Source: Candidatus Dormiibacterota bacterium
Lineage (GTDB): Bacteria; Chloroflexota; Dormibacteria; CF-121
Assembly: GCA_035544955.1 (NCBI GenBank)
Contig: DASZZN010000027.1
Location: forward strand, 1 to 38,759
DNA length: 38,759 nt
Direction: 5' to 3'
In this document: in pieces, positions 26,168-35,934 of the stretch
Layout: each line of letters begins with the position of its first letter
Position numbering within the stretch: position 1 is the first letter of the stretch
The notes under the pieces: generated by a model
Told to the model about the DNA's origin: nothing
Databases searched by the model: none
What the model saw: the letters and a program-made list of their open reading frames with translations, nothing else
Program-made: the position numbers and the translations under genes

Positions 26168-26240
26168 GCGGGAGTAGCTCAGTTGGTAGAGCGCAACGTT
26201 GCCAACGTTGAGGTCGCGAGTTCGAGACTCGTCTCCCGCT
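26168..26240 (+). tRNA. tRNA-Gly (anticodon GCC)
   Basis: The acceptor stem GCGGGAG pairs with CTCCCGC (discriminator T). The anticodon stem CAACG/CGTTG encloses TTGCCAA (anticodon GCC). The T-arm is GCGAG-TTCGAGA-CTCGT. CCA is not encoded. Its last 23 nt (26218-26240) recur downstream at 29387, 30347 and 35912. Confidence 0.97.
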
Positions 26241-26465
26241 AATTGATCAGCTTGAGCTGGCTTGTTGGAGCGAGTGGCTTCACGACCAAACGGTGGCCCC
26301 AACGAGTTTGAAGTTACAAGGGCTGATTTCCTCGTCGCCAGGGTCGCTATGCGGCGTCCGACATGGCGGTGGGAGGCGGCGGTCCCCAAGGGCCTCTGGC
26401 CGTGGATTATCTTCGAGTTTCACGCGGCATGTAACCTTCTGCTCCTGAAGAGCCCCTTTCCAGTA

Positions 26466-26942
26466 GTGGAGGCGCCAACCGCGGACGAGCGCACTGACAC
26501 GGTCGAGGCGCTCTATCGCACGCATGGGGATCGAATTTGGCGGGCGGTAGCTGTTTATGCCCAGGATCCTGATGTCGCGAGCGATGCGGTGGCGGAAGCA
26601 TTCGCGCAGTTAATGGTTCGGGGCGAAGCTGTTCGGTCGCCGGCTGCCTGGGTGTGGCGGACCGCCTTTCGGATCGCTGCTGGGATGCTCCAGGAGCGCA
26701 CACGATCGGTAGCCCTCGTGGGAACAGAATCCTACACGACACGTGATTCGGCCGGCGAATTGGTGGCGTCTCTGGCCAAGCTGCCGCCGAAGCAGCGTGC
26801 CGCCTTGATTCTCTTCTACTACGGCGACTACCCAATCGGTCAGATTGCCGAGATGTTGCGCTCAAACGCCCTGTCTGTTCGGGTCAACCTGAGCCGCGGA
26901 CGGCGGCGGCTGCGGCGAATCCTGGAGGAAGAGCATGCCTGA
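26466..26942 (+). CDS. ECF-type RNA polymerase sigma factor
   Basis: This protein of about 158 residues has sigma region 2 (about 13-75: VEALYRTHGDRIWRAVAVYAQDPDVASDAVAEAFAQL and SPAAWVWRTAFRIAAG) and region 4 (about 100-150: LPPKQRAALILFYYGDYPIGQIAEMLRSNALSVRVNLSRGRRRLRRIL). It would direct transcription of a small regulon, possibly its own operon. The frame is open upstream to 26262 (ATG at 26349) without family-like residues, so the GTG at 26466 was chosen. Its end overlaps the next gene by 8 nt. TGTAAC at 26430-26435 resembles an ECF -35, but no matching -10 was found. Confidence 0.88.
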   Translation: MEAPTADERTDTVEALYRTHGDRIWRAVAVYAQDPDVASDAVAEAFAQLMVRGEAVRSPAAWVWRTAFRIAAGMLQERTRSVALVGTESYTTRDSAGELVASLAKLPPKQRAALILFYYGDYPIGQIAEMLRSNALSVRVNLSRGRRRLRRILEEEHA

Positions 26943-28368
26943 GCTGAAGCAGCGGTTCGAGGAATTGGAGAGGCTGCCCGCGCCCGACCTCCAGCGGCGC
27001 ATCCAGATCCGGATTCAGCGCCTTCAGCAGCCGGACAACCCCCTGTCCGTTGCGGAACAGGCATGGCGCCGCCGCGAGCGCCTATGGCCTTCGCAGGTGT
27101 TGGCCGCGGCGGCGGTAATCGTCTTTGCCCTCGTCCTGGGGGTTGCACTGCTGCATGCGCGCAGTCGGGCGCCGGTCCAAGTCCATCCAAGTCCTTCCGT
27201 CGCCCCCCAGCCCCTTCCGAGTCCTTCGATCACCGGCACCTATCCGCGCGGCTTTTATCCGGGTTCGCTGCACATGGTGTCGCCAAACGTCGGTTGGAAC
27301 GGCGTTGCTTACGTTGAGACGAGCGATGCCGGACTTCATTGGAGGGTCATTTCATCGCCGCCGGCAATCTCGAATCAGATCAAAGGTGGGCTGGGTAACT
27401 TTGCGCTGGACACGACGCACGCTTGGATGACCGGGGCGACCAGCCACGGGCTCGTCGTGACCTCGACCGTCGACGGCGGTCATACCTGGAGCGCGAGCGC
27501 TCCGCTGCCGGCCCTCATCCAGATCAGGGGAGGAAATGCAGCGGTGCAATTGGACTTTATCGACGCGCAGCACGGCTGGCTGGTCGTAGATACCGCGGGT
27601 AGCGCTTCTCCAAATTCGCGGGCCATCTTTGCCACGAGTGACGGCGGCCGGCGCTGGAGCGAAATCGCCAGGGCCTCCGAATCCGATGGTTCCGTCCTTG
27701 GTCGGCTTGCCGCCGGCTGTACGCCGAGCGGAATAACGTTCATCAGCGCCGATTACGGGTGGTTGACCTACGACTGTACTCGCGCCAGCGGGGTTCTGTC
27801 CCCACACTCCGGTCCTGTCGCAGCGGTTACGCGCGACGGCGGTCGGAGCTGGGAGGCGGTCCCCCTCCCCTCATACCCGTCAGGGTCCGGGTACTTTTCG
27901 GCGAGTGCGCCGATCTTTACGCTGAACAACGGAATCCTTCCCGTGTTTTTCGGCGGTATCGGGCCGTCCTGGACTGGGATTTATAGAACCACCGACTCGG
28001 GCCGAACCTGGAGCTTGAGTCAGCTGCCGTTCTGGCCAGCCGCGCCCCCCGACTTCATCGACGCGCGCACGGGATGGGCCGTCAAGGAAACGGGGCCGAT
28101 CCCGCCAAGCCCGGGTGCCGACTGCTACGTCGTCACGTGTGCTTTCGTTGCCGAGTTGTACGGCACGACAGACGGTGGCGCCACGTGGAAGCTTCTCAGC
28201 CGACTGGTCCCCGCGGCCGGTGCCGTGGCGTTCTTCGATGCCAAAGTTGGCTACTACGCCTGGTCCGAAAATCCGTTCCACGAGGGATCGCCAGGCGGCA
28301 TTATGAAGACAACAGACGGCGGCCGCAGCTGGTCGGTCGTACGGCCGGTCCTGGAGGGTCAAGGGTGA
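26935..28368 (+). CDS. Membrane-anchored Asp-box (BNR/Ycf48-like) propeller protein, candidate anti-sigma sensor
   Basis: This 477-residue protein has a charged cytoplasmic segment of about 50 residues (LKQRFEELERLPAPDLQRRIQIRIQRL), one membrane helix (about 53-73, SQVLAAAAVIVFALVLGVALL), a Pro/Ser linker and an extracytoplasmic beta-propeller. Seven Asp-box motifs are visible, among them TSDAGLHWR, TVDGGHTWS, TSDGGRRWS, TRDGGRSWE, TTDSGRTWS, TTDGGATWK and TTDGGRSWS. It overlaps the sigma gene by 8 nt and the next lipoprotein gene by 4 nt. The position and topology are those of a transmembrane anti-sigma factor, but the cytoplasmic part has no anti-sigma motif I recognise. Confidence 0.85.
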   Translation: MPELKQRFEELERLPAPDLQRRIQIRIQRLQQPDNPLSVAEQAWRRRERLWPSQVLAAAAVIVFALVLGVALLHARSRAPVQVHPSPSVAPQPLPSPSITGTYPRGFYPGSLHMVSPNVGWNGVAYVETSDAGLHWRVISSPPAISNQIKGGLGNFALDTTHAWMTGATSHGLVVTSTVDGGHTWSASAPLPALIQIRGGNAAVQLDFIDAQHGWLVVDTAGSASPNSRAIFATSDGGRRWSEIARASESDGSVLGRLAAGCTPSGITFISADYGWLTYDCTRASGVLSPHSGPVAAVTRDGGRSWEAVPLPSYPSGSGYFSASAPIFTLNNGILPVFFGGIGPSWTGIYRTTDSGRTWSLSQLPFWPAAPPDFIDARTGWAVKETGPIPPSPGADCYVVTCAFVAELYGTTDGGATWKLLSRLVPAAGAVAFFDAKVGYYAWSENPFHEGSPGGIMKTTDGGRSWSVVRPVLEGQG

Positions 28369-29267
28369 AACGGATGGCACGCCTCGGCATTCTCATGATT
28401 GCGCCGCTTTGGTTGGCCGCCTGCGGCGGGACGGCCGCCCGTCCCACGGTTGCCGCGTCCCGGGCCGCCTCTGCCACCGCGGCCGCGAGCGGCCCTTATA
28501 TCTATTGGGCGAACTGGGGCGCCGGACGTGGGACCACGATCGGCCGCGCCAATCTCGACGGTACGGCGGTGAACCCGAGTTTTATCACCGGCGCCAGCAC
28601 CCCCTGCGATGTTGCGATTAACCAGTCGTATATCTACTGGGGAAACAATGGTACGAATTCGATTGGGCGCGCCAACCTCGATGGCACGGCGGTAAACCAA
28701 ACGTTTATCAGCAGTACCGGCTCGCCGTGTCCTCTCACCATTGACCGCTCTCATATCTATTGGGGGAATTGGCAGGCTCCCGTCTCCATTGGCCGAGCCA
28801 ATCTGGACGGCACTGGGGTGAATGAGAATTTCATCACCGGCATCACTGAACCCGCAGATGTCGTGGTAAACGAGACCTACATCTATTGGACCAGCCACGA
28901 TTCCTTGTCGATCGGGCGCGCGAACCTCGATGGAAGGGGCGTCAACCAGACATTCATCAAGACGGAAGCAACTCCAGATGGGATGGCAATTGACGGCTCG
29001 CACATGTATTGGACTGGCATCGACCGGGGCACAATCGGGCGGGCCAATCTTGACGGGACCGGGTTGAACCAGACCTTCATCACCGGCGCGAATGGGCCGA
29101 CTGGGATTAAAGTCGATACCGACCATATTTACTGGTCCCAGGCGGGTCCACCAAACGGACCCGCGGGGACCACCATCGGGCGAGCGAACATTGACGGCAC
29201 CGGGGTAAACCAGCGCTTCATCACCCGGGCATTTATTCCAGCTGGCCTTGCCATTCAACAACCCTAA
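28365..29267 (+). CDS. YWTD-type six-bladed beta-propeller lipoprotein
   Basis: This 300-residue protein starts at a GTG that overlaps the upstream stop (GTGA) and has a lipoprotein signal ending LAAC (C20). The mature protein is six repeats of about 40 residues with the pattern Y/H-IYW...IGRANLDGT.VN..FI, resembling LDL-receptor class B (YWTD) repeats, so a single closed six-bladed propeller is expected outside the membrane. It has no catalytic motif. As third gene of the sigma/propeller operon it may be a ligand-binding partner or a target of the sigma factor. Confidence 0.88.
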   Translation: MKRMARLGILMIAPLWLAACGGTAARPTVAASRAASATAAASGPYIYWANWGAGRGTTIGRANLDGTAVNPSFITGASTPCDVAINQSYIYWGNNGTNSIGRANLDGTAVNQTFISSTGSPCPLTIDRSHIYWGNWQAPVSIGRANLDGTGVNENFITGITEPADVVVNETYIYWTSHDSLSIGRANLDGRGVNQTFIKTEATPDGMAIDGSHMYWTGIDRGTIGRANLDGTGLNQTFITGANGPTGIKVDTDHIYWSQAGPPNGPAGTTIGRANIDGTGVNQRFITRAFIPAGLAIQQP

Positions 29268-30346: not shown

Positions 30347-30369
30347 GAGTCCGAGACTCGTCTCCCGCT
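30347..30369 (+). repeat. tRNA-Gly 3'-end remnant 2
   Basis: The 23 nt match 26218-26240 with one change (T to C in the T-loop). It is preceded by the hairpin CTGG..GAGGA/TCCTC.CCAG and by AGCTTGCGTCCT, both shared with remnant 1. Confidence 0.9.
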
Positions 30370-30466: not shown

Positions 30467-31636
30467 CTACGGACGCACGGCGACGCCGTGGACCGCGCAT
30501 CCTGAGCAATTGGCCGGATTGAAAACCGAAGCTGGTGCCAGATCGAGGTAGCTAACCGTTCTTTGATTGACATCGATGACCGCGATCTTGCCCGAGGCGC
30601 GAAGCGAAACAAAGGCGGTGTTCCCTTTCACGCCGATGGCATCCGGCTGGTCGTTGGCGGGACCCGGCGTTGGGTCGAGAACTAGGATGTCGGCGACGCT
30701 TACTTGTTCACCCCGAAGGTCGATCAGCACCAGCTCGTCACCGCGCGGAACGGTCCCGAAGCCCAGCTTTTCGTTAGGGCTCATGTTGAAGCTATGCCAG
30801 TCGGGCGCCGGAAGCCTACCGGCGTCTGCGAGCGTTTCGGTGTCGGTGTCGAGCCGATAGATATGGCCCCCAGTGCTTCCGCCGGCCGCAATCGTCACAG
30901 TCTTGCCGTTCTTCGACTTGATCATGCCGCACGCGATGAAGCCGTCAGTATCGAAGGTGCGCACAACGCTCATGCTGCCCACGTCGACGATCGCCAGGCC
31001 GCTGGGAAGCAACGAGACGTAGGCATGCTTGCCGTCGTCGCGATACACGCTGCAAATCGGAGCCTTCCCCAGCGACGCGAACGAGAGGGAACCGACGACA
31101 TCCCAGCGTTGGGTGGCCAGGTTCGCGGCGACCTTGAAGAGGGTTTTGGAGCCAATCTGCGCCACGAGCAGGACCGAACCGTCCGGTGAGGATTTCGCCT
31201 GGTGGGTCCCTACTTGTCCCAGGTGCAGGACATCGACGAGCTGTCGGCTGTCAGCCTGGACGATGTCGAGGTCGCCGTTGCCCATCCCGGAGATGTAGGC
31301 AAAGGCGCCCTGGGGCGAGAAGGTCGTGATGTGCGGACCGGTCCCGGCCGGAAGGTTGATCGTCTCCATTGGCCCTCGGCCGTCCTGGCCGTGAAGGATA
31401 TCGATGCGACTGGTTGCCTGGAGTGTGATCCAGACCTCGCCGCTCTCCGATAGGACAGTTGGTGTTTGGGCTGGCCGGACTACGGTCGCCGCCTGCTTCA
31501 CTGACGCCGGCCCCTCCGCCGGCGTAGTCGCCGACACTGGAGTCCCACACGCGGCTAGGCTGGCGAGCAAGGTCAGGCTAACAAGCGGCCAAAAGGTCGA
31601 GCGACATGATCGCGGAAGCGGCATCATGATCCTCAT
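30467..31636 (-). CDS. YVTN-type beta-propeller lipoprotein
   Basis: This 389-residue protein has a lipoprotein signal ending SLAAC (C30). The mature part has repeats of the YVTN/cytochrome-d1-like propeller type: [95 protein letters not shown] and [26 protein letters not shown]. It ends with [14 protein letters not shown], which is not a canonical CxxCH heme site. The ATG at 31636 has a strong GGAGG upstream; the longer open frame was rejected. It is divergent from the LuxR-NHL regulator, which could control it. Confidence 0.86.
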
Positions 31637-31718
31637 GTCTTTCCTCCGTCGGGGTTTTCCGGCTCGCCGCCACCGTAGGGGGAAAACGGCCGCCACGCAT
31701 CCGCAGAAATACAGGCTC

Positions 31719-31752
31719 CGGTACCCATTTCGGTACCCAATTCCCATCGGGA
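31719..31752. promoter_or_regulatory. Tandem repeat and inverted repeat between the divergent propeller genes
   Basis: Two adjacent 12-nt units (CGGTACCCATTT and CGGTACCCAATT, 31719-31742), each with a GGTACC palindrome, are followed by TCCC-ATC-GGGA (31742-31752). They lie in the 131-nt space between the YVTN lipoprotein and the LuxR-NHL gene and are candidates for a regulator-binding region. Confidence 0.55.
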
Positions 31753-31767
31753 CCTGAGGAGAACGGA

Positions 31768-33183
31768 GTGCCGGCCAGGCAGGAGTCCACGCTGACACCT
31801 CGCGAGCGGGAGGTCGCCGCTCTCGTAGCCGACGGGCTGACGAACCGCCAGATAGCCAGGCGCCTCTTCATTTCGGAGCGGACGGCCGAGCACCACGTTG
31901 AGCAGATCCGAAGCAAGCTCGGCTTCCATTCCCGGGCTCAGGTTGCCGCATGGGTCGTGGGATCGCCGGCGCCTCTCGCGCCCGCCCCAACGGCCGCGGC
32001 GTCTGTGCCAGTCGATGCCTCGTCGAGCCGAGAGTCCACTGCAACTGGAAAGGCCCCTCGATCGCGCTGGGTGACCGCCGTCCCGGTCGCCATGTTGGTG
32101 GCTGCCGGCGCTGCGGCCTTCGCCTTCTGGGCGTCGCGGCAGGGAGGGTCAGCCATGACCATCGTCACGGTGGCCGGCACCGGTCGATCGACGTTCTCGG
32201 CGGACGGCCGGCCCGCAACAGCGACGGATCTCGTCCGCCCGGCGGCGATGGCGGTTGCTCCGAACGGCACGCTCTACTTCATCGACGGCAATCGAGTCAG
32301 GAAGATCACTGGACGAGACACGGTGCAGACCATTGCGGGCACGGGTGATTCCGGGGATGGCGGTGATGGGGGGCCAGCCCTGTCGGCTCAACTCAACTCG
32401 CCAAAAGCGCTGGCCATCGATCCCGACGGAGATGTTTTCATCGCGGATACCGGGAACAATCGGGTTCGTGAGGTTGATCCCAAGGGGAAAATCTTCACGG
32501 TAGCCGGCACAGGCGATGCCGGCTATTCCGGTGATGGCGAACGAGCGGTCCGGGCTCGCCTGAACGCCCCGACGGGACTGGCCGTCGGCTTTAGTGGCAG
32601 CGTATTTATCGCCGACACGCTGAATCATCGTGTGCGAATGGTCACGAGCGAGGGCGTGATCAGCACGGTGGCGGGAACCGGAACCGCCGCGTATACGTTC
32701 GAAGGTGGTCCCGCCACCGCGGCACCCCTCGACTTACCTGAGGCACTTGCCTTCGACAGCGAAGGGTATCTCTACATCGAGGACGTTGGCAACGATCGGG
32801 TGCGGAAGGTCGATCTCGCCGGCGAGATCGTCACCGTCGCCGGAACTGGTGTTCCGGGCTCTTCCGGCGACGGTCAATCGGCTTCAGCCGCTGAGCTGAG
32901 TCTGACGAGCCAAGGGTTGGGAAGTGGTCAGGCGCTGGCCGTTGATAGCCAGGGCAACCTTTATATAGCGGATGCCGGCAACGAGAGGATTCGCGAGGTC
33001 GATCTTCGCGGCACAATTTCGAGCCTGGCGGGGACCGGTCGCGCGGGGTACTCGGCGGACGGTAGCGCGCCGCTGCAGGCAACGCTTAACGATCCTCTCA
33101 GTGTGGCGGTTGACGCCCAGGGAGTCGTGTACATCGCCGACAGCGAGAACAATTTGATCCGGGAGATTGCTCCCAAACGCTAG
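31768..33183 (+). CDS. LuxR-type HTH / transmembrane / NHL six-bladed propeller regulator
   Basis: This 471-residue protein has a GerE/LuxR DNA-binding domain at the N-terminus (about 8-64: [43 protein letters not shown]). A Pro/Ala/Ser linker, one membrane helix (about 102-122, [21 protein letters not shown]) and six NHL repeats (about 133-471, pattern AGTG..GYSGDG...A.L..P..LAVD..G..YIAD..N.RVR.V) follow. The layout suggests a one-component membrane regulator that senses outside and binds DNA inside, in the manner of ToxR/CadC but with different domains. The start is GTG with TGAGGAGA 6 nt upstream. The stop overlaps the convergent neighbour's stop (CTAG). Confidence 0.9.
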
Positions 33184-34432: not shown

Positions 34433-35899
34433 GTGAGGGGAACAACGACGAGGTCGCTGACGCTCGTGACAGCGAGCGTGATCATGATGGCTTCCCTGGC
34501 GCCAGGGGCAGGCATCGCTGCTTTGGCCAGCGACCAGGGGAGCGTGCGCTTCAGCCTCCAGCACCGGGTCGGTTTCGTCTCCGGCGACGACTGGGAACCG
34601 GCCATCGCAGCCGACCGGTTTGGCCATGAGTACGTCCTGTACAAGCACTACGACGTCCCGGGCGGCGGCACCTGCCCCGCCTGCGATGTCCACCTCCTTG
34701 TACAGCGCAGCAGCAATGGTGGGCGTAGCTGGACCGTGCCCAGGGCCATTGCCCCAGTAGCCGTTGACGGTGGGCAGTACGATCCGCAGATCGCGGTCGA
34801 CCCCGTGGACGGCCGCACCGTGTGGGCCTCCTTCCTGCAGAACGCCAACTCCGTGATCGGCGTGGTCGAATCCACCGACTTCGGCGAGACCTGGTCCCCC
34901 GTTCGGATCGTAAGTGATGGCCTCATCGGGCTGGACAAGGACTCGCTCGTGGTCCGCGGCCGGACCGTGGCGGTGGCGTACGACGACGGCTTCAGCACCT
35001 ACGCGTCAATCTCGCAAGACGGCGGTCGGCAGTGGACTACCCGCCTGGTTACGCCCGGCAGCAACCGCTTCAACCTGCCGTTGTCGGCAGGCGGCGGAAT
35101 CGATTCCAAGGGCAATCTGTATTTTGCCTGGAACAGCTTTGACGCAGCCCATTCGGCTAACGGGGACGGACCGGTTACGCTCTGGCTCACCCGCTCCAGC
35201 GACGAGGGAAAAACCTGGCAACGAGTCGTGATCGCTGTCAGTGGCGCTCCCCCGCCCTGCAGTGGTTGCGGCTTCGCCTATCTAAGTGCGCAGATGACCA
35301 TGAGGATCGGGCCCGACGACGCAGTCTATCTCCTCTGGAATGGAACGGTCGACCGCACGGACTTTGCACCCGAGCGCATCTTTTTCAGCCGCTCGGTTGA
35401 TCACGGCCGAACCTTCTCATCGCGCCGCGAGGTGTCCACTGCTCCGGCTGGGGCAGAACATGCTTTTCCGGCGATCACCGTCGGCGATCGAGCGGGCGAC
35501 GTACGGTTGGCCTGGATGGACACGCCGCAGGTGGCTGCGGACGGAACCGGCACCTGGAACGTTCGTTACCGGGCCACTGAAGATAATGGGCAGACGCTGG
35601 GGCCGGAGGTACGCATCTCCCGATTCGTGCCTGGCTATCCTTATCTCACGCCAGCCGGGTTCACGTCGCCATACGGCGACTACTTTCAGATGGCGATTGA
35701 TGCAAACGACGCCACCGTGCTGGCGTTTGGCGAAGGCCCGAACTACGCGGGGCCGGGCAACATCTGGGTCTCGCATGAGCTTCAGACCGGCGAACCGGAC
35801 ATAGCCGCCGGGGGCCCGGATGAAAGCTCCGCGGCGACCTGGCAGCGCGCGCTCCACGGAACTACTGAGCGGACGCATGCAGGTGTCGGCGACCGCTAG
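34433..35899 (+). CDS. Secreted Asp-box (BNR/sialidase-fold) protein
   Basis: This 488-residue protein has a signal peptide (1-33, LTLVTASVIMMASLAPGAGIAALAS). Its mature part is a sialidase-fold propeller with repeated Asp boxes: SSNGGRSWT, STDFGETWS, SQDGGRQWT, SSDEGKTWQ, SVDHGRTFS and a weak TEDNGQTLG. Two cysteine pairs (CPAC, CSGC) may form disulfides. I do not see enough of the sialidase arginine triad to call an enzyme; exo-alpha-sialidase annotation would be over-reach. The last ~30 residues look unstructured. The stop lies 12 nt before the distal tRNA-Gly copy. Confidence 0.85.
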   Translation: MRGTTTRSLTLVTASVIMMASLAPGAGIAALASDQGSVRFSLQHRVGFVSGDDWEPAIAADRFGHEYVLYKHYDVPGGGTCPACDVHLLVQRSSNGGRSWTVPRAIAPVAVDGGQYDPQIAVDPVDGRTVWASFLQNANSVIGVVESTDFGETWSPVRIVSDGLIGLDKDSLVVRGRTVAVAYDDGFSTYASISQDGGRQWTTRLVTPGSNRFNLPLSAGGGIDSKGNLYFAWNSFDAAHSANGDGPVTLWLTRSSDEGKTWQRVVIAVSGAPPPCSGCGFAYLSAQMTMRIGPDDAVYLLWNGTVDRTDFAPERIFFSRSVDHGRTFSSRREVSTAPAGAEHAFPAITVGDRAGDVRLAWMDTPQVAADGTGTWNVRYRATEDNGQTLGPEVRISRFVPGYPYLTPAGFTSPYGDYFQMAIDANDATVLAFGEGPNYAGPGNIWVSHELQTGEPDIAAGGPDESSAATWQRALHGTTERTHAGVGDR

Positions 35900-35911
35900 C
35901 TACTCTACGGA

Positions 35912-35934
35912 GAGTTCGAGACTCGTCTCCCGCT
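35912..35934 (+). repeat. tRNA-Gly 3'-end copy (distal boundary)
   Basis: A perfect 23-nt copy of 26218-26240, 9.69 kb from the tRNA. It abuts the promoter of the UvrA-like gene. It is the best candidate for the original tRNA end displaced by integration. Confidence 0.93.

Follow-up and report, generated by a model that had tools for sequence, protein, structure and literature searches.

What holds an extracytoplasmic function (ECF) sigma factor in check when its gene runs directly into that of a membrane protein with a beta-propeller outside the cell? The question arises from contig DASZZN010000027.1 of the soil bacterium Candidatus Dormiibacterota (GenBank assembly GCA_035544955.1; genome of 3.67 Mb), whose full 38,759 nucleotides form the window analyzed here. 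Three plus-strand genes with overlapping ends encode the sigma factor, the single-pass membrane protein, and a lipoprotein (Table 1). We conclude that the membrane protein is most likely the anti-sigma factor of the operon's sigma factor. Gene linkage and residue covariation together support binding of the sigma factor by the short cytoplasmic tail of this protein, and we infer that binding is inhibitory. Because similar tails are joined to many different outside parts in related bacteria, the arrangement looks like a widely reused and little-noticed signaling design.

Architecture of the operon

The sigma and membrane-protein genes share 8 bp (ATGCCTGA), and the membrane-protein and lipoprotein genes share 4 bp. 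The sigma product matches Pfam Sigma70_r4_2 (E 2e-12) and the NCBIfam model for the ECF superfamily, TIGR02937 (45.3 bits; cut-off 42.9), and its match to Sigma70_r2 is weak and lies under the cut-off of that model. With sigma2 and sigma4 as its only domains and a match to the ECF profile, the protein belongs among the ECF factors.

The second protein has a single transmembrane (TM) segment and, judged from hydropathy and a basic flank only, an N-terminus inside the cell, which is the layout of ECF-linked membrane anti-sigma factors. Its ectodomain gives YCF48/BNR Pfam matches, with Asp boxes at residues 129, 178, 234, 299, 352, 411, and 459. The tail contains no cysteine, and none of the Pfam models matches it. 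In the AlphaFold2 (AF2) model of the whole protein, helices span residues 2–12, 16–31, and 40–77; the mean predicted local distance difference test score (pLDDT) of this model is 49, too low for a fold search. The third protein carries the lipobox LAAC and six IGRAN[LI]DG repeats. An earlier note made from the sequence alone had described three overlapping genes at 26466–29267 for a sigma factor, a single-pass protein with seven Asp boxes, and a six-blade lipoprotein, and that description holds throughout.

Linkage of the tail to ECF sigma genes

Using the window membrane protein as query, we found 43 places across 61 genomes. At 26 of the 43, the protein has a TM segment and a tail of 39–62 residues, and a script placed an ECF gene directly before all 26 of these; three of the 26 match the query by tail and TM segment only. 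Another two sit at the edge of a contig, and the remaining 15 lack a sigma gene in that position. The earlier note held that propeller genes standing without a sigma gene would speak against the pairing. Such genes do exist, but the 15 are mostly lipobox or signal-peptide (secreted) proteins; two have tails of about 20 residues, two are unclear, and three are broken frames, one of which (in genome G011) is the rear portion of a tail-bearing protein whose sigma gene is present. Among the 26 proteins with a tail of 39–62 residues, the pairing is without exception.

Searches from either partner gave a similar picture. An ECF gene precedes 60 of 64 full-length matches to the tail profile by script, or 61 if locus L082 is counted, where the script missed a sigma gene that is present; the three other exceptions (L136, L159, and L162) are weak matches. 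This count omits the six weakest rows of one list, four places that were not fetched, and those rows of the phylum search that did not recur in the order and class searches (two were kept). Starting from the sigma factor alone, a similar partner was found at 115 of 118 loci among the top-scoring matches listed, and at 16 of 18 in the window's own genome; as the sigma profile was built mostly from tail-linked sigma factors, these figures are no census of all ECF factors. The overlap between sigma and partner genes is 8 bp in 53 of 75 cases and 4 bp in 15. Tails have a median length of 45 residues, with tenth and ninetieth percentiles of 40 and 55.

The host genome holds a second copy of the operon, in which the sigma factor is 76% identical to that of the window, the tail plus TM segment is 51% identical over 82 columns, and a lipoprotein gene again comes after the membrane-protein gene. 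Within the window's family, the sigma factor also occurs in genomes G006, G008, G014, and G017, the last cut by a contig end; in the first three, it is followed by a tail of the MxDLKxRFxxxDxxPxPDL type, differing ectodomains, and then a lipoprotein. Four copies are present in an actinobacterial metagenome-assembled genome. The tail profile matches 27/396 genomes of the phylum of that actinobacterium, 19/27 of one order, and 24/296 of another class, although by our reading many weak matches are due to the TM segment. No matches were found in viral contigs.

Covariation between sigma factor and tail

We applied mean-field direct coupling with average product correction to 218 of 222 sigma–tail pairs (four were dropped for gaps; effective number 175). 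Twelve of 6000 sigma–tail column pairs exceed a Z of 3.5. Random re-pairing over 20 runs left a mean of 0.15 such pairs (largest 1), and clade-preserving swaps among related sigma factors, also over 20 runs, left a mean of 1.25 (largest 3). The strongest pair joins tail residue F8 to sigma residue L114 with a Z of 6.46, compared with maxima of 4.27 for random re-pairing and 5.65 for swaps, and its residue combinations (L-F 59, V-L 36, and I-L 29) form a size-matched hydrophobic pattern. Above a Z of 2.5, helix 1 of the tail makes 15 pairs with sigma4 and 12 with sigma2, and helix 2 makes 3 and 13, respectively (Fisher p 0.026; p 0.14 for the same preference at Z > 3). Altered settings shift the ranks little.

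These tests bear on the idea that the two genes are merely co-transcribed and co-moving, with the covariation a product of shared ancestry. Overlapping neighbors are inherited jointly, part of the coupling depends on clade, and the segment around the operon is tRNA-bounded and may be mobile as a whole. Nevertheless, only 1.25 of the 12 pairs remain on average after swaps that preserve clades, the protein's own TM segment gives less signal than the tail, tail-less propellers occur without a sigma gene, and the best register of the tail matches published contacts between RseA and RpoE, as described below. We consider common ancestry a very improbable explanation of the signal. The sigma/anti-sigma layout that the earlier note proposed is supported by both the linkage and the covariation between the two proteins.

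Comparison with known anti-sigma domains

Sections of a published analysis (PMC7406223) describe how helix 4 of class I anti-sigma domains contacts sigma2.1/2.2 and helix 1 contacts sigma4, how CnrY reaches sigma2 and sigma4 with only two helices, and how helix 1 of RseA (D11) covaries with residues 149 and R178 of RpoE. We mapped the sigma columns onto Escherichia coli RpoE. Three contacts of RseA helix 4 (23-56, 27-56, and 58-63) recur as couplings with tail residues 20, 20, and 27 (Z of 3.75, 3.53, and 3.59), all at an offset of 36, and of the 30 offsets scanned, 36 gives the highest mean Z (0.72, against 0.28 for the runner-up). At this offset, the tail sequence DLQRRI lies over DISSRV of RseA. 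The position equivalent to RpoE 178 couples to a helix-1 column with a Z of 5.07, and in the subset of 165 pairs from the window's class, the RpoE178-equivalent pair ranks first of 6450. Published sigma2 sites couple more strongly than other sigma2 sites to helix 2 (p 0.009) and to helix 1 (p 0.001); the TM control shows no such excess (p 0.12), and published sigma4 sites give p 0.11, which is not significant. Overall, helix 1 leans to sigma4 and helix 2 to sigma2, and some of the residue pairs concerned are those published for RseA and RpoE.

Several results weigh against this reading. The AF2 helices of the tail reach a pLDDT of only about 67, and the propeller model is too poor for a blade count. 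The sample comprises only 218 pairs, some of the 12 strong pairs fall on columns that are gapped in the window protein, and the sigma–TM control still has 1 of 2700 pairs above a Z of 3.5. The two leading signals divide between subsets: F8-L114 is weak in the window's class (Z 1.9, rank 223), and the RpoE178-equivalent pair is lost among the 53 pairs from the actinobacterial side, where F8-L114 ranks fifth. The other 15 of 18 published helix-4 and linker contacts fall below a Z of 2. Offset 36 was noticed before it was tested, so that its permutation p of 0.0012 becomes about 0.04 when the 30 offsets are allowed for. The match of RseA to the tail helix-2 profile is not significant, and we do not claim homology.

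Could the membrane protein instead be a positive partner, its tail recruiting the sigma factor to the membrane or acting as a co-activator, and its propeller serving as a YCF48-like envelope assembly factor? The ectodomain is homologous to YCF48, and linkage and covariation indicate a partnership rather than its sign. However, known sigma-bound single-pass proteins with such a layout are anti-sigma factors, which weighs against a tether. Helix 2 also covaries with the sigma2.1/2.2 positions used by RseA, a surface that, according to PMC7406223, binds the clamp helices of RNA polymerase, so that binding there should inhibit. A positive role is therefore improbable, and we retain the anti-sigma assignment.

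What kind of anti-sigma domain would this be? Excerpts of one account (PMC8103513) describe three anti-sigma classes. Like class I domains (ASDI; RseA, RskA, RsiW, and ChrR), the tail belongs to a membrane partner encoded beside an ECF gene, its covariation suggests that helix 1 leans toward sigma4 and the last helix toward sigma2.1/2.2, and its D-L-x-x-R-I lies over D-I-x-x-R-V of RseA at the best register. Unlike them, it is short (median 45 residues; ASDI average 101) and has two predicted helices instead of four in about 100 residues, lacking helices 2–3 and the HxxxCxxC zinc motif often found in the class. Class II domains (CnrY and NepR) may share with the tail the plan of only two helices, the first to sigma4 and the second to sigma2, but have no detectable sequence similarity to the tail and differ in their ectodomains. 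A search of the PDB by tail profile returned nothing meaningful; the 21 sequences that it listed with E values of 10 or less include no CnrY chain. When four longer partners of ECF factors (L023, L096, L155, and L283) were scanned, the best match to helix 2 fell after the cysteine region, at the place expected for helix 4; this is only suggestive, as control sigma open reading frames (ORFs) reach 15 bits. The tail thus resembles class I helices 1 and 4 without the middle helices, in a plan close to that of CnrY. It is predicted to work like a class I/II anti-sigma domain, yet it stands outside class I by its length and by the absence of a four-helix fold.

The novelty of the tail is a separate matter. 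The earlier note saw no recognizable anti-sigma motif and suggested that this may be a new class. That is only partly right: the tail seems to behave like class I helices 1 and 4 with helices 2–3 missing, and an NCBIfam model, NF052375 ("anti-sigma factor"), gives weak matches to 12 of 35 tails (limit E 0.1; best E 3.9e-6). These matches favor a less novel view, in which the sigma factor belongs to an already catalogued ECF group with an unclassified anti-sigma partner and nothing here is new. On the other side, the window tail reaches 27 bits where the curated cut-off of NF052375 is 100, which puts it outside that family, and it has no Pfam match. We also found no report of this design in the literature searched, which did not cover the groups of the 2021 ECF reclassification. 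We judge an existing catalog entry less likely than not, though by no means improbable.

Anti-sigma factors of the RsgI type in Clostridium thermocellum offer a likeness in plan, as one type of cytoplasmic plug is combined there with many extracellular sensor domains in several copies per genome. They act on sigma-I rather than an ECF factor, and their sensors bind carbohydrates. Sigma/anti-sigma systems of C. thermocellum are mentioned in part of PMC10766802. Two other systems appear in the parts of PMC8999054 that concern them. ECF57 factors carry WD40-like C-terminal extensions and so also tie an ECF factor to a propeller-type repeat, but in those factors the repeats are part of the sigma protein itself, whereas the window propeller belongs to a membrane protein encoded by another gene. 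SigE-CseA of Streptomyces likewise combines an ECF sigma factor with a regulatory lipoprotein, but under two-component control rather than a membrane anti-sigma factor.

Proposed mechanism and promoter-like element

Very probably, the operon is a cassette of ECF sigma factor, membrane anti-sigma factor, and lipoprotein that works as follows. The sigma factor would turn on its own operon from a near-leaderless promoter of the TGTAACC type, as a conserved element indicates. The co-translated membrane protein would bind the sigma factor through its short tail and hold it at the membrane, with helix 1 mainly on sigma4 and helix 2 (PxPDLxxRI) on the sigma2.1/2.2 surface that core RNA polymerase would use. 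The earlier note's view of the propeller as the sensor is plausible: it may bind a ligand or a partner outside the cell, and the operon's own lipoprotein propeller is perhaps among these; binding would then alter or destroy the anti-sigma factor, free the sigma factor, and raise the output of the operon.

Six sigma genes of the clade are preceded by TGTAACCTTT or a near form of it (TGTAACCTTC in the window and GGTAACGTTT in G008), with GCCCC or GCTCC just ahead of the GTG start. The pattern TGTAACCTTN12-14GCYCC has seven matches in nine genomes, and a reversed-pattern control has none. Five begin 35–38 nt before the start codon of a clade sigma gene, a spacing that supports the GTG start assigned to the sigma gene, and one begins 43 nt before the G008 lipoprotein gene. 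This recurrence before sigma and lipoprotein genes supports self-induction with the lipoprotein as a target, and we infer that the sigma factor induces its own operon. Genomes G001, G002, and G010 have neither the clade sigma factor nor a match, 100 shuffles of the window contain no match to the element, and a scan for promoters of the AAC-N14-18-CGT form found nothing at the expected place. The remaining match lies at a contig end in G012 (L344, G012:C54:5899-5924), a position suggesting that an assembly gap conceals one more copy of the operon.

Exchange of outside domains

The tail may act as an exchangeable cytoplasmic plug, which the window's lineage joins to many different ectodomains. 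The ectodomain of the second operon copy has no detectable similarity to that of the window. Among 14 partner ectodomains scanned in the host genome, four are of the YCF48 type, one each matches NHL, PD40, AMIN-like, DUF4179, and DUF4232 (the last below cut-off), and five have no domain match. Outside the host genome, kelch repeats are found in L030, an actinobacterial relative, and in the lipoprotein of G006. An unnamed domain is common to the ectodomain of the G014 protein (L037, G014:C99) and the G008 lipoprotein (L027, G008:C449), at 47% over 76 residues, which indicates that domains exchange between sensor and lipoprotein. To judge from the sequences, ectodomains are exchanged freely on the tail.

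The window lipoprotein matches Pfam Ldl_recept_b (E 2e-17), and its single-sequence AF2 model (pLDDT 71) has the YWTD propellers of LRP4 and LRP6 as top fold matches. We keep a lipoprotein as third gene for the window clade only, where it is found at four of five loci by script and at the fifth (L037) by eye. As a general third gene it was rejected: 15 of 132 loci against 21 of 660 controls is a weak excess, and it counts against the lipoprotein as a regular part of the wider design.

Our opinion is evenly balanced on a broader proposal. A stripped-down anti-sigma domain of about 45 residues, corresponding to class I helices 1 and 4 after loss of the middle bundle, would be the standard plug of ECF partners throughout one bacterial class and in one actinobacterial order, shuffled onto many ectodomains, with YCF48, NHL, kelch, and PD40 propellers among them. 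ECF surface sensors that induce themselves and are missed by domain libraries would then form a large family; in the window, the propeller sensor and propeller lipoprotein may act as paired receptors within a cassette inserted at a tRNA gene. If this is true, many "hypothetical" ECF neighbors in uncultured soil bacteria could be read by rule as anti-sigma factors, and the tails would show how little of a class I domain suffices to hold an ECF factor. They would also provide a natural set of sensor swaps on one short plug, and what surface propellers sense would become directly testable with a reporter.

Table 1. Features of the operon and its surroundings, in window coordinates.
Feature	Coordinates	Strand	Evidence
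Promoter-like element TGTAACCTT-N13-GCCCC, 36 nt before sigma start codon, near-leaderless; probable autoregulated ECF promoter	26430..26456	+	Recurrence upstream of clade sigma genes
ECF sigma factor (sigma2 + sigma4), 158 aa	26466..26942	+	GTG start, TGA stop; Pfam, NCBIfam
Bitopic membrane protein, 477 aa; predicted anti-sigma factor with extracellular YCF48/BNR-type propeller	26935..28368	+	ATG start; Pfam, AF2, linkage, covariation
Cytoplasmic tail, residues 1–52: helix 1 (2–12), helix 2 (16–31, PAPDLxxRI); predicted minimal anti-sigma domain	26935..27090	+	AF2, family alignments, coupling
TM helix, residues ~55–77	27097..27165	+	Hydropathy; AF2 helix 40–77
Extracellular Asp-box (BNR/YCF48-like) beta-propeller, seven boxes; predicted sensor	27268..28344	+	Pfam, motif scan
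Lipoprotein with six-bladed YWTD/LDLR-class-B-like propeller; predicted co-induced partner	28365..29267	+	GTG start; Pfam, AF2, motif scan
45-bp direct repeat (93%) of tRNA-Gly 3' end (26215–26258); attachment-site (att)-like boundary closing the operon segment	29384..29428	+	Repeat comparison

Repeats of a tRNA-Gly end and neighboring genes

The sigma gene starts 225 bp after a tRNA-Gly gene (26168–26240), and a second copy of the tRNA-Gly end stands just behind the lipoprotein gene. A 19-bp core of this repeat recurs on the same strand at 30347–30365 (one mismatch) and 35912–35930; it is absent from 100 shuffles and, among 349 loci, occurs only at this one. The four same-strand copies split 26.2–35.9 kb into three segments, one with the sigma operon, a short one, and one with propeller genes, a series that resembles successive insertions at a tRNA gene. 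The sigma factor is patchy within the genus, in 3 of 14 other genomes. Together with the bracketing repeats, this suggests that the operon was acquired as a cassette at the tRNA gene and would be mobile. No integrase was found among the island ORFs scanned with Pfam, a scan that smaller ORFs fell outside.

Two propeller-like proteins, a lactonase-like lipoprotein with a weak Pfam match (30467–31798, minus strand) and a BNR_2 repeat protein (34433–35899, plus strand), make the series of segments rich in propellers. At 31768–33183 on the plus strand, a further gene encodes an N-terminal LuxR-type (GerE) helix-turn-helix, one TM segment near residue 101, and then an NHL propeller. This protein would be a membrane-bound transcription factor with its propeller outside, sharing the sensing plan of the sigma operon with a different output.

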